From Prevotella sp. (GTDB lineage Bacteria; Bacteroidota; Bacteroidia; Bacteroidales; Bacteroidaceae): 54,573 nucleotides of DNA. Location: NCBI GenBank assembly GCA_017619445.1, contig JAFZSI010000025.1:1-54573 (forward strand), in the 5' to 3' direction. How positions within the stretch are numbered: position 1 is the first letter of the stretch; each line of letters starts with the position of its first letter. The notes beneath the pieces were generated by a model. That model did not search any database and was not told where the DNA came from. It was given only the letters and a program-made list of their open reading frames with translations. A program made the position numbers and the translations under genes. Positions 5,387-52,560 of the stretch are shown here, one piece after another.

Positions 5387-6406
5387 CTATAGAGTGGATA
5401 CAAATTTATATGCATCGTCTAGTGCTATTATTTCTTTTTCAGCTGTTACTACCCCAGAAGATAAAAGGCCAACAAATTTTTTACTATTGATAATGGGAAA
5501 CAACGCCTCTAAAGAATACTTGTTTATTGAAATGTATAGTTTTTGTAAACCAAGTGAAAGAAGGGCGTTAGCAGAAATAAAGAAAAGATCTTGTTGAAGT
5601 AAAACATCATAGAACAAATCAGCTCGTGGTCCAGAAGTCGAACCTTGTATTGTGGGAGGCAACATGTCACATTCACGACCTCCAATGACCAAGAACTTTG
5701 CACGTTTTATACTATCGTCAACTTGTTCTAATTCCGTTTCATATGCAATCATCTGGGACTCATATCTGCCTTCTGCCATCATATGGTTGAAATCAACTTT
5801 CGTTTCAGCGACAAAAAGGTATTTGTCTCTTGTATTTAGTAGGGTTACGTCTAATCTTCCACCTCTATCCCTTTGATATATTTTTAAACCAACTTCTAAA
5901 GACAAACGAGGTTCAAATGAGGTACTCAAGAATTTCATAGCATTAGCTGTCCAAACAGCGATGTTTTTTGTCTCGTCAACAGCAGTAAAAGATTCAAAAC
6001 TTTTATATTTTACAGACAATTGACTAGTGAGAACCTTTGGTAAATGGATAAATGTTCCCTTGAATAATTTGGAAGCCATCCTTTCAAGTTCCGCTAATTC
6101 TTCTTTTGTTATGTCATAGCAAAAAGTCTTGGGATGAAATCTGTCTGATAAAAGGATTCTGTTTCCCACACAACCAAAAATACAGAACATACAGTTGATG
6201 CAGTATTCATCCTTAACGGAAAACTTACTAACACTATCTTCTTCCTTTTTTATACAACGAATTAAAAGAGGGATGCTGTGGTTTTGTATTCCTTTTGAAT
6301 GCTTTTCGTCTTTTAAAAAATTAGCAAGATAAGAGTACTTGTACATTTTTATATATGCACAAGGAGCATCTTTCTGGTTATCAGCATATAAACAAAATTT
6401 ACCCAT
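5387..6406 (-). CDS. Probable PD-(D/E)xK restriction endonuclease with ferredoxin-like Cys cluster
   Basis: The last gene of the restriction-modification operon encodes 339 residues. A nuclease core is suggested by E171, D186 (in GGRLDVTLL) and E201-T-K203 (in FVAETKVDF), the spacing of a PD-(D/E)xK active site; Q218 in ESQMIAYE may also belong to it. Upstream, residues 69-79 read C-x2-C-x2-C-x3-C (CINCMFCIFGC), the pattern of a 4Fe-4S ferredoxin loop, which is unusual for a type II enzyme. Its start overlaps the preceding gene by 8 bp. Nuclease assignment rests on motif and context; no family name is recognised. It could instead be an Mrr-like or defence effector nuclease. Confidence 0.55.
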   Translation of the reverse strand: MGKFCLYADNQKDAPCAYIKMYKYSYLANFLKDEKHSKGIQNHSIPLLIRCIKKEEDSVSKFSVKDEYCINCMFCIFGCVGNRILLSDRFHPKTFCYDITKEELAELERMASKLFKGTFIHLPKVLTSQLSVKYKSFESFTAVDETKNIAVWTANAMKFLSTSFEPRLSLEVGLKIYQRDRGGRLDVTLLNTRDKYLFVAETKVDFNHMMAEGRYESQMIAYETELEQVDDSIKRAKFLVIGGRECDMLPPTIQGSTSGPRADLFYDVLLQQDLFFISANALLSLGLQKLYISINKYSLEALFPIINSKKFVGLLSSGVVTAEKEIIALDDAYKFVSTL

Positions 6407-7580
6407 TATAACTATATTGGTTTAGAAAGTTAATAACATCTTGAGGAGCTCCAGATTGCAATTCGTTCATATTTATTCCTTTTGTTGGCTGAAGATAACA
6501 TTTCCCGTTCATGTTTCTTATTACATAAGGTATACCTGCCATAAATGCTATTTCAATTTCTGTCGAGACAGTTTCTTCTAAGAATTCCTCTGAAACTACA
6601 AACATATTTTTATTTGCCTTCAAGACTTCTATGATATCATTTAAGGCTAATGCTGTATGATTATGAAAAGCGAGATTTAATAAAAAAAGGATAGCAAATC
6701 GTCGATTCTTTATTTTTGTTTCATAGTATCGTGTGGCTTCACGTACAGCTGACTGACCATTTTCTCTTAAACAGAAATTCATCTTTGTAAGATTGTCATA
6801 ATTTAGAGGCTTATCAGTTATCTCAGTATTTGGGAACTCTATAATTTCATAGACTTGCCCCATTCTATGTTCGCTATTAATGTAATCACGATATGCGATG
6901 TGTGGGTATGGGGAATTAGAAGGCACAAAATGAACAGGTTTGATATAACCACCTTGAGTCAACCAAGCCAATATACATGATTTTGTTCTCGTGTTTGAGT
7001 CTTGTGTTGAACCAGCAGATAGTTCTATCAAAGAACCATTGTGGTTAACAAACTCAGCTGGTGAAGGATAGCCGACACATATTTCATTTACGTTAAAAGT
7101 GTCACCAGGATTGTATCTTGCTAGACTATTCATTACACCTATTACGGGACCATAGTTTATAACTGCTTTTTTTATTATCGCTTGCATATCTGCTGTTCCG
7201 TATGAGGCTTTTGCAAATCTGACGCCAAAAGAGGTTATTCTAACAATCCTGCCTACTCGCTCTACAAAACCTAAAGCATGCATAGCATTAATAGTATTAC
7301 TAACTTCTTTTGATTTTGTAGTATCACTTAAAATACCGTTAGTAATCGAACAACCTGCGTCGTCAAGCGGATTCTCTTTAAACCTACAATACTTTCCAAC
7401 AAGTTCATCTTCAAGGAGCAACGTACAGTATTTGTGAATGTTTATGGCGTTGCGATCAAATTTGACATCCTTGAGGTTAAAAGGCTTACCATAACTTCCA
7501 TATTTTTCCACAATCAATTGAGCAAGTGCATGAAGACACTCAATTCTTGCAGCTGCTGTACGATTTATGAGAAATGCCAT
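6399..7580 (-). CDS. Unknown protein of the restriction-modification operon, possible winged-helix DNA recognition subunit
   Basis: I do not recognise a family for this 393-residue soluble protein. Its N-terminal third has a segment that reads like a winged helix: SNTINAMHALGFVERVGRIV followed by RITSFGVRFAKA, near residues 92-125. The rest is mixed alpha/beta with no nuclease or ATPase motif that I can see. It overlaps the nuclease gene downstream by 8 bp and follows the small upstream gene by 2 bp. That coupling, and an N-terminal DNA-binding look, make a target-recognition partner of the nuclease the simplest guess. No signal peptide or membrane segment is present. Confidence 0.45.
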   Translation of the reverse strand: MAFLINRTAAARIECLHALAQLIVEKYGSYGKPFNLKDVKFDRNAINIHKYCTLLLEDELVGKYCRFKENPLDDAGCSITNGILSDTTKSKEVSNTINAMHALGFVERVGRIVRITSFGVRFAKASYGTADMQAIIKKAVINYGPVIGVMNSLARYNPGDTFNVNEICVGYPSPAEFVNHNGSLIELSAGSTQDSNTRTKSCILAWLTQGGYIKPVHFVPSNSPYPHIAYRDYINSEHRMGQVYEIIEFPNTEITDKPLNYDNLTKMNFCLRENGQSAVREATRYYETKIKNRRFAILFLLNLAFHNHTALALNDIIEVLKANKNMFVVSEEFLEETVSTEIEIAFMAGIPYVIRNMNGKCYLQPTKGINMNELQSGAPQDVINFLNQYSYNG

Positions 7581-7582
7581 AA

Positions 7583-8026
7583 TTATACTATTGTTTGAAA
7601 ATCTACATCAAGCTTAAGTGATTCTAATGTTTGGCGAACGCTTTTTTCTTCTATTCGCTCAGAATATAAAAGAACACACTTTACAATCAAATTAGGGAAT
7701 GATTTCATTACACTATCTTTTATTCGAGATAAATCGATGGCATTGCTGTCAGTCGAGAACTTTGAAGACTTTTTGTAAAGAGTAATTGTGTTTTGTTCTT
7801 TCGAGACCAAGTCAATTCTTCTAGCCCTTAAACCATATTCCCAATCATAGTTAACTCTTATAAAAATTGATCTGTCTTTTGATTCCAAGTTGCTTGCAAA
7901 AAACAACAAGGTATCCAATTCTTTTTTACAAGGATGGTGATAAAAGAATTGTTTGTTTTCGCCATCAGATGAATTGTTTATTATAGACTTTAATGTGCTA
8001 TTTATGTTTCCTCGGTAAATAGGCAT
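7583..8026 (-). CDS. Small unknown protein of the restriction-modification operon
   Basis: This 147-residue protein is not recognised. It contains the stretch ARRIDLVSKEQNTITLYKKS near residues 68-87, which has the strand-D-strand-x-x-K rhythm of a PD-(D/E)xK fold, but the usual Glu before x-K is replaced (LYK), so activity is doubtful. Its start overlaps the end of the upstream methyltransferase by 25 bp, in the manner of translationally coupled genes. It could be a second nuclease-fold subunit that dimerises with the nuclease at 5387-6406, or an accessory specificity factor. Confidence 0.5.
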   Translation of the reverse strand: MPIYRGNINSTLKSIINNSSDGENKQFFYHHPCKKELDTLLFFASNLESKDRSIFIRVNYDWEYGLRARRIDLVSKEQNTITLYKKSSKFSTDSNAIDLSRIKDSVMKSFPNLIVKCVLLYSERIEEKSVRQTLESLKLDVDFQTIV

Positions 8027-9866: not shown

Positions 9867-10192
9867 CTACGCATATAGCTTTATAAGCGTAAGGACTATC
9901 TGTTCGGATGATTATGGGCTCGTAACAAAGAACCTTAGGACATGAAAAAGCGTGAAACCGCCTTATCGATGTCCCAAGGTCCTTGCAAAACCCACTACGA
10001 AGATAAGTCCAGTCCACGCTATGCGTAGACGTTGGCACTTATTCGTTTCGTAGGTGTCATATGAATTTGCAAGGTTCAGGGACATCACCGAATATAGCAC
10101 TAACGCTATGTTAAAACCGCAAAATAGTGTTACCACCCTGCGCTCAGGGAATCTTGCTGTAGCAAGCGTCGTTTACGACGATTGGCAATACG
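9867..10192 (-). ncRNA. Highly structured leader RNA of the restriction-modification operon (candidate new RNA)
   Basis: The stretch between the -7 box at 10199-10206 and the methyltransferase ATG is packed with inverted repeats. In plus coordinates they are: 9868-9872/9887-9891; 9933-9943/9969-9979 (10 of 11 pairs); 9981-9989/10066-10074 (9 of 9), which encloses 9993-10001/10047-10056, 10002-10008/10037-10044 and 10012-10019/10023-10030; 10101-10109/10124-10132 (8 of 9); and three consecutive tetraloop hairpins at 10136-10149, 10153-10166 and 10167-10180. That is about ten stems in 325 nt. It is not tmRNA, RNase P, SRP or 6S RNA by any landmark I can find. Promoter position favours the minus strand, but stem wobbles do not settle it. 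Confidence 0.6.
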
Positions 10193-10198
10193 TCTCTG

Positions 10199-10206
10199 CA
10201 AAGATA
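10199..10206 (-). promoter_or_regulatory. -7 box for the structured leader and restriction-modification operon
   Basis: TATCTTTG on the minus strand matches TAnnTTTG exactly and would start transcription near 10192, at the edge of the first tetraloop hairpin. No TTTG at the correct upstream distance is seen, so a regulator may assist. Confidence 0.5.
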
Positions 10207-52381: not shown

Positions 52382-52455
52382 GGTGCGTTAGTTCAGTAGG
52401 TTAGAATGCCTGCCTGTCACGCAGGAGGTCACGAGTTCGAATCTCGTACGCACCG
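52382..52455 (+). tRNA. tRNA-Asp (anticodon GTC), copy 1
   Basis: A 74-nt tRNA with acceptor GGTGCGT/ACGCACC and discriminator G. The anticodon arm CCTGC-CTGTCAC-GCAGG gives GTC, and the T arm CGAGTTCGAATCTCG is regular. CCA is not encoded. Identical in sequence to copy 2, 21 bp downstream. Confidence 0.96.
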
Positions 52456-52476
52456 CACAACTGATTTAGATTTTCA

Positions 52477-52550
52477 GGTGCGTTAGTTCAGTAGGTTAGA
52501 ATGCCTGCCTGTCACGCAGGAGGTCACGAGTTCGAATCTCGTACGCACCG
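52477..52550 (+). tRNA. tRNA-Asp (anticodon GTC), copy 2
   Basis: Identical to copy 1 and separated from it by 21 bp, so the pair is a recent tandem duplication or is kept identical by conversion. Followed 10 bp later by a terminator. Confidence 0.96.
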
Positions 52551-52560
52551 CTGAACCAGA

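Follow-up and report, generated by a model that had tools for sequence, protein, structure and literature searches.

Restriction-modification (R-M) systems pose a timing question, in that nothing may be cut before methylation, yet the cell has to be defended when infected. In the available text of PMC3874152 and PMC12707154, this timing is described in terms of methyltransferase or controller proteins and of antisense RNA. The locus studied here raises the question at the level of a messenger. In the window (the whole stretch of DNA that was analyzed, 54,573 nt, contig JAFZSI010000025.1 of a Prevotella sp. genome), an interval of about 330 nt in front of a DNA-methyltransferase operon is tiled with potential stems. 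We ask whether this interval encodes an RNA, whether that RNA is conserved, and what it could do for the genes behind it.

The interval is the minus-strand 5' leader of the operon; its 3' end is followed immediately by the start codon of the first gene (ATG, 9866; table 1). The minus strand of 9867-10197 folds with a z-score of -6.17 and the plus strand with a z-score of -3.56, with 0 of 100 shuffles as good in either case; the plus strand was rejected as the RNA because its fold is the weaker of the two. The perfect -7 box of the original prediction is indeed perfect, but lies just beyond the edge of the interval rather than within it, and of 93 dereplicated copies of the leader, 88 have a perfect TAnnTTTG immediately before the 5' domain. 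We infer that the transcript starts at about 10198, just past the box. The proposed comparison with Rfam 15 was run, and none of its covariance models matched in the interval at the gathering score or even at E ≤ 10; 13 homologous loci gave two matches only, both at chance level and outside the leader. No direct repeat was found in the window leader. Downstream, a restriction subunit is presumed to be among the three further ORFs of the operon, which are candidates for a new subunit of this kind. Two window ORFs searched against plasmids by tblastn, and one searched by sequence against the PDB, gave no match. Elsewhere in the window (52382-52551) is a tandem pair of tRNA-Asp genes with an identical anticodon.

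Table 1. Features of the leader and of the operon behind it, in window coordinates
Feature	Position	Strand	Basis
Bacteroidota -7 promoter box, TATCTTTG	10199-10206	-	sequence; perfect TAnnTTTG in homologues
Structured leader RNA, ~330 nt	9867-10198	-	fold z-score, homologues; 3' end at the start codon
5' domain: P1 (10184-10191 with 10127-10134) closing P2, P3 and P4	10127-10191	-	covariation
Putative hairpin P5, ATAGC-GTTAGT-GCTAT	10094-10109	-	alignment
Segment A1, GATGTCCC; partner B2	10079-10086	-	covariation, phylogeny-aware null
Segment A3, CCTTGCAA; partner B1	10067-10074	-	covariation, null
Hairpin P8 with apical hairpin P8c (10012-10030)	10002-10044	-	covariation
Segment D, TGGGTT; pseudoknot with D'	9989-9994	-	own versus cross-sequence score, null
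Segment B1, TTGCAAGG; partner A3	9981-9988	-	covariation, null
Segment B2, GGGACATC; partner A1 or alternatively C	9968-9975	-	covariation, null
Segment C, ATGTCCTAAGGT; alternative partner of B2	9932-9943	-	covariation, null
Segment D', AGCCCA; pseudoknot partner of D	9915-9920	-	own versus cross-sequence score, null
Segment S, GATAGTCC; complementary to 3' strand of P8	9893-9900	-	own-minus-cross score; weak support
Segment T, 12 nt directly preceding the start codon; TATGCGTAG can pair with CTACGCATA of P8c	9867-9878	-	pairing tests
First gene, N6/N4 DNA methyltransferase, 344 aa	8832-9866	-	PF01555, 7e-14; PADLOC MTase_II
Second DNA methyltransferase, 280 aa	8002-8844	-	PF01555, 4e-48
Three further operon ORFs (147, 393 and 339 aa)	5387-8026	-	best match no better than E 0.009

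Copies of the leader are common in the genus and rare beyond the family. A DNA search of 149 genomes (own genome included) aligned ten places from nine further genomes across ~180-350 nt at 73-81% identity. It also yielded a second set of homologues, in which similarity is confined to roughly the first 75 nt although the leader is of similar length. Within the genus, covariance model R1, built on the 5' domain, matched in 103 of 398 genomes (185 places as summed from the result table); at higher ranks it matched in 17 of 301 genomes of the family (six genera), 2 of 295 genomes of the order, and 1 of 345 genomes of the phylum. Own genome is included at each level, being one of the two in the order and the only one in the phylum, and it holds two copies. 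An exact 23-nt pattern occurs in 59 stretches of named genomes, titled as Prevotella, Prevotellaceae, Bacteroidaceae or Bacteroidales; ruminant hosts appear in many of these titles, and two matches (L117 and L123) are in a cultured organism, Xylanibacter brevis ATCC 19188. In viral_contigs there were 0 exact pattern matches, the window leader was unmatched among 50,697 phage records, and its one match in plasmids (38 nt) is chance-like. Judged by sequence, the leader is a new RNA family with hardly any copies outside the bacterial family. The copies compared below are the best places per genome plus the exact pattern matches, out of ~185 places. They number 124 with that of the window, many from metagenome-assembled genomes, and 93 after near-identical (≥92%) and short ones were dropped; the relatives L039 and L041 are unmatched by R1 and hence stand outside the 124. 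In genome G077 (contig C53:25232-26183), a repeat array with a spacing of mostly ~77 bp matches only the promoter part of the leader query.

Comparison of the copies shows a predicted architecture with four elements: a cloverleaf, a segment B that pairs with A or with C, a D:D' pseudoknot, and an RNA end fixed at the start codon. Covariation among homologues, the check proposed in the original prediction, is strong. For helices of the 3' domain it was also assessed with our own script after the R-scape idea, using a phylogeny-aware null in which substitutions are re-dealt on the tree in 200 draws. In the 5' domain, the three consecutive tetraloop hairpins first noticed are present as P2 (10167-10180), P3 (10153-10166), and P4 (10136-10149), to which the comparison adds a further helix, P1, that closes them into a four-helix cloverleaf. 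Across 15 sequences and 23 pairs, 93.2% of cells are paired, 12 pairs have changes on both sides, and 0 of 500 shuffles score as high on any of five measures. In the 5' domain of L035 and L044, P2 is enlarged by an insert of ~45 nt; the full leader still follows in L035.

The 9-bp stem predicted at 9981-9989/10066-10074 corresponds to helix A3:B1. Alignment A4 consists of 71 of the 93 copies, preselected for at least 11 of 13 A:B pairs (B:C, P8c, D:D', and T were not selected for), and the A:B percentages are therefore inflated: all seven counted pairs of A3:B1 form in all 71 homologues, five with changes on both sides, and in A1:B2 all nine counted pairs have changes on both sides and 87.8% of cells are paired. 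The null reached neither helix in 200 draws. In a covariation scan of the 93 sequences, restricted to column pairs in which standard pairs make up 70% or more, A1:B2 and A3:B1 provide nine of the top ten pairs, and many lower ones fit no helix. Single pairs at E < 0.05 number seven (six in A:B) in a test of 56 RNAs and nine (eight in A:B) in a test of A:B, P8, and B:C; the odd one of each test fits no helix. Counts of further pair types in A:B and P8 are not above chance (489 of 500 shuffles at least as high). Among 22 divergent copies, A:B has a p of ~0.05 or less in 14 by crude shuffles, which miss the positive controls WIN and L046 too (p ~0.07). Of the remaining helices, P8c is paired in 98.6% of cells with a null of 0/200, and the lower part of P8 is weak, its null reaching 11/200. 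In L045, an extra ~40 nt lies in the P8 region of the 3' domain, before a PLD/Snf2-type helicase, and L139 of the same cluster is longer there too. The D:D' pseudoknot scores 16.7 on own sequences versus 13.6 across sequences (null 0/200; its columns and those of T were set by hand from the consensus), and for the closing UUCGG:CCGA helix the null reached 1/200. The own-minus-cross score of S is +1.99 (se 0.48) versus +0.28 (se 0.31) for a reversed control.

Segment B2 has a second conserved partner. In B:C, 86.4% of cells are paired and 9 of 12 pairs have changes on both sides; the null was reached in 0 of 200 draws, versus 69 and 90 of 200 for slid controls. This support is at the level of the helix, as none of its single pairs has E < 0.05 and further pair types are not above chance (77 of 500 shuffles at least as high). 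A:B and B:C are thus two conserved, mutually exclusive pairings that covary on the same B2 columns. The stems named in the original prediction exist, the 9-bp stem and the three tetraloop hairpins having been placed individually, but several are alternatives to one another and cannot tile the interval together. Since the pairings of B2 with A1 and with C are both conserved, the RNA looks built to switch. Of the 22 divergent leaders, 19 were tested for B:C; 12 have a clear partner (p ~0.01 or less) and follow the same logic with other letters, setting 9 bp of A:B against 9-18 bp of B:C. Seven show no clear one, L157 being among them because its ORF start is misplaced.

Strands next to the start codon take part in such pairings. 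The start codon lies 85-112 nt past the B2 region in 57 of 71 RNAs. Among these 57 main-class RNAs, in which the start codon has its usual position, T pairs with P8c at no fewer than 10 of 12 positions in 33, versus 18% for mismatched sequences, and at fewer than 10 in 24, L043-type leaders among them. In the phylogeny-aware test (56 RNAs, L160 dropped), the null was reached in 1 of 200 draws for T:P8c and in 21-42 of 200 for slid registers; a reversed-sequence control is mildly positive too (+1.49, se 0.48). In another class it is C that abuts the gene, ending 0-2 nt before the ATG in L103 and L132 and, from sequence, also in L141 (a near-duplicate of L132) and L157. L103 is the second, divergent copy of own genome (contig C75:16701-16752, minus strand, 1100-1620), with a methyltransferase-like ORF behind it. 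The comparison shows that strands bordering the start codon (T in a large part of the main class, C in the L103/L132 class) are complementary to internal segments and would be able to pair with them.

The genes behind the leader are of many types and of one theme. The first ORF, picked mechanically as the longest same-strand ORF in a set span, starts 157-349 nt past the 5' domain in the 87 copies in which it could be located, and 245-270 nt past it in 55. In six of the 93 it was not located, because the DNA ends (L049, L075, and L093) or despite sufficient DNA (L112, L115, and L145). R-M or related defence genes are the first ORF in 82 of the 87 and, with only two copies in own genome, the leader does not recur in unrelated places as a simple mobile repeat would. 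ORFs on the other, upstream side served as a negative control: no Pfam or PADLOC family occurs in more than 2 of 78, and a few are defence candidates (YhcG and PDC families). Grouped by similarity of their proteins, the 87 first ORFs fall into nine clusters and seven singletons. Clusters were named using family tallies across the full set (best 25 families) and scans of single members, so that some members were read only through their cluster. The set includes 24 PLD/Snf2-type helicases (an Eco57I-type methyltransferase is second in both operons checked), 13 type II methyltransferases, 10 type I HsdM, 8 type IIG enzymes, 8 type III-like methyltransferases, 6 EcoRI-like proteins, 5 methyltransferases of the D12 class, 3 N6 methyltransferases, 3 ResIII helicases, one cytosine methyltransferase, and the enzyme of the window, found once. 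The other five are L051 (a weak PADLOC match to PD-T4-5, a defence candidate), L066 (AMP-binding), L160 (SusD-like), and L153 and L106, which have no assigned family. With no Rfam match, strong covariation, and R-M genes behind its copies, the candidate new structured RNA heading an R-M operon is upheld, as is the expected association with similar operons.

Leaders and genes are not tied pair by pair. When five window proteins were searched against 20 loci by tblastn, a single weak local match resulted, so the leader is not bound to the window's own R-M system and goes with R-M generally. Identity of the window leader with those in front of Snf2-type helicases (L032 and L120) and of HsdM genes (L035, L147, and L099) is 82-86%, with no similarity in gene or upstream DNA, and across the pairs compared, leaders of unrelated genes are 82-90% identical with unrelated upstream DNA. 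The reverse holds for L147 and L155, whose HsdM proteins share 88% identity but whose leaders can be aligned across no more than 76 nt; in some other pairs with the same gene the leaders stay alike (e.g. L134 and L158), and all such pairs were chosen rather than drawn exhaustively. The leader is also optional for R-M systems, since only 6 of ~40 N6-methyltransferase genes stand behind one in 10 genomes checked, three of which were chosen because they have no copy. Eight copies with sufficient DNA have no recognized R-M gene. By eye, L051, L153, L115, and L145 have no recognizable 3' domain, L160, L112, and L066 have lost its end, and only L106 has it whole. Because seven of these eight lack the 3' domain or its end, it seems to be retained mainly where the gene is, in line with action in cis.

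We therefore read the leader, from comparison of sequences, as probably a cis-acting bistable 5' element that controls translation of the first gene of the R-M operon. It is co-directional with that gene and fixed in position relative to the start codon. B would pair either with A upstream or with C downstream, giving two rival folds, of which one would free the start codon and the other hide it; our guess is that the A:B fold would be the open, ON state. The trigger may be a shared cellular or infection signal, such as a metabolite, a regulator, or a phage factor. A shared signal is likelier than feedback from a single enzyme, given that proteins unrelated to one another have this leader in front of them.

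Riboswitches and other switching mRNA leaders of the sequestor/antisequestor type offer the nearest parallel. The leader resembles them in its upstream structured domain, the rival strands A, B, and C, a switching strand beside the start codon, and an end at the coding region. It differs from them in lacking an Rfam match, in heading many R-M types instead of one metabolic pathway, and in its length of ~330 nt with a pseudoknot. The D12-methyl RNA motif is reportedly a structured RNA upstream of D12-class DNA methyltransferases, described from metagenomic sequence only; by that description it is confined to one methyltransferase class, which the leader is not, and the leader has no match in Rfam, where the motif may or may not be represented.

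Control at translation has precedents among defence genes. The available text of PMC12707154 (2025) states that translational control of R-M exists, with mechanisms not always characterized, and reports hairpins that limit access to restriction-enzyme starts in single systems; these likewise hide the translation start of an R-M gene in mRNA structure, whereas the leader is a conserved, exchangeable RNA family. The terms "riboswitch" and "structured RNA" are absent from the main text of that review, as far as it was available, and "restriction" and "methyltransferase" are absent from the corresponding text of PMC8040213 and PMC2864571. According to excerpts of PMC2661086, translation of the phage-defence gene abiD1 of Lactococcus is held back via the start region of its mRNA and activated by a phage protein or low temperature, a similar restraint, but on one gene and with no conserved leader family. 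RptR, in the accessible part of PMC12255303, is a DNA-binding protein on promoters, strongly associated with type I systems; it too is one regulator common to many R-M systems, but a protein and not an RNA. The abiF RNA/RCd22 of Clostridioides is described in portions of PMC12373285 as an RNA of ~130 nt with a terminator and a repeated motif, likened to type III antitoxins, and, as predicted for the leader, it is structured and co-transcribed directly upstream of a defence gene. Identity with a type III toxin-antitoxin or abiF-like RNA was rejected, as the window leader has no tandem units and the genes are unrelated methyltransferases and helicases. Among the best-ranked open-licence papers, we found no RNA leader of R-M operons, an absence that is not proof.

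Alternatively, the leader could act on transcription. As an element of processive antitermination or of attenuation, comparable to EAR and put RNAs, it would help RNA polymerase to traverse long defence operons. A large structured leader heading operons of large genes would suit such a role. However, the family ends at the start codon, its start-adjacent strands pair with the leader, no terminator-like site was found in the window leader (minus strand), and copies also precede type IIG enzymes, in which both activities are in one protein. We consider this reading unlikely. It is quite improbable that the leader is released as a trans-acting or processed RNA and serves the defence system as guide, antitoxin, or protein partner. 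The cloverleaf-like 5' domain is strongly conserved in sequence, as such an RNA might be, and structured RNAs beside defence genes exist (abiF/RCd22, in the part of PMC12373285 available), but the same RNA stands before unrelated proteins, no terminator-like end was found in the window leader, and the 3' domain or its end is missing in seven of the eight copies without a recognized R-M gene. Among the options that the original prediction left side by side (regulatory leader, guide-like RNA, and trans-acting RNA), the cis-regulatory leader is favored over the other two, since the start codon marks the end of the family and strands beside that codon join in alternative pairings.

Segment S, which is AAGATATAGTCC in L039, resembles a 3' core element conserved in group I introns, and together with the pseudoknotted topology this could point to a self-processing RNA, a ribozyme or intron relative. 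Such a nature has very little probability in our view; several strands are alternatives instead of parts of one fixed fold, and a group I intron or ribozyme was rejected since no Rfam model fits even at E ≤ 10. That the leader is mainly a homology anchor for swapping defence cassettes by recombination, its fold a by-product, agrees with the modular exchange of leader and gene in the selected pairs but is highly improbable, given that compensatory changes preserve helices while the sequence diverges and that, of the two strands, the minus strand has the better fold.

As a leader common to R-M systems of types I, II, IIG, and III, this RNA would add a new layer to their control. An extension that we offer tentatively, and lean somewhat against, is an RNA-based "defence regulon" in Prevotella, in which an exchangeable riboswitch-like sensor would gate translation of R-M systems of every type in response to a common signal, be it infection, metabolite state, or a newly arrived operon. 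Restriction would then be timed through an RNA module whose evolution is separate from that of the enzymes. Identifying the ligand or partner of the leader would reveal the cue that turns restriction on.
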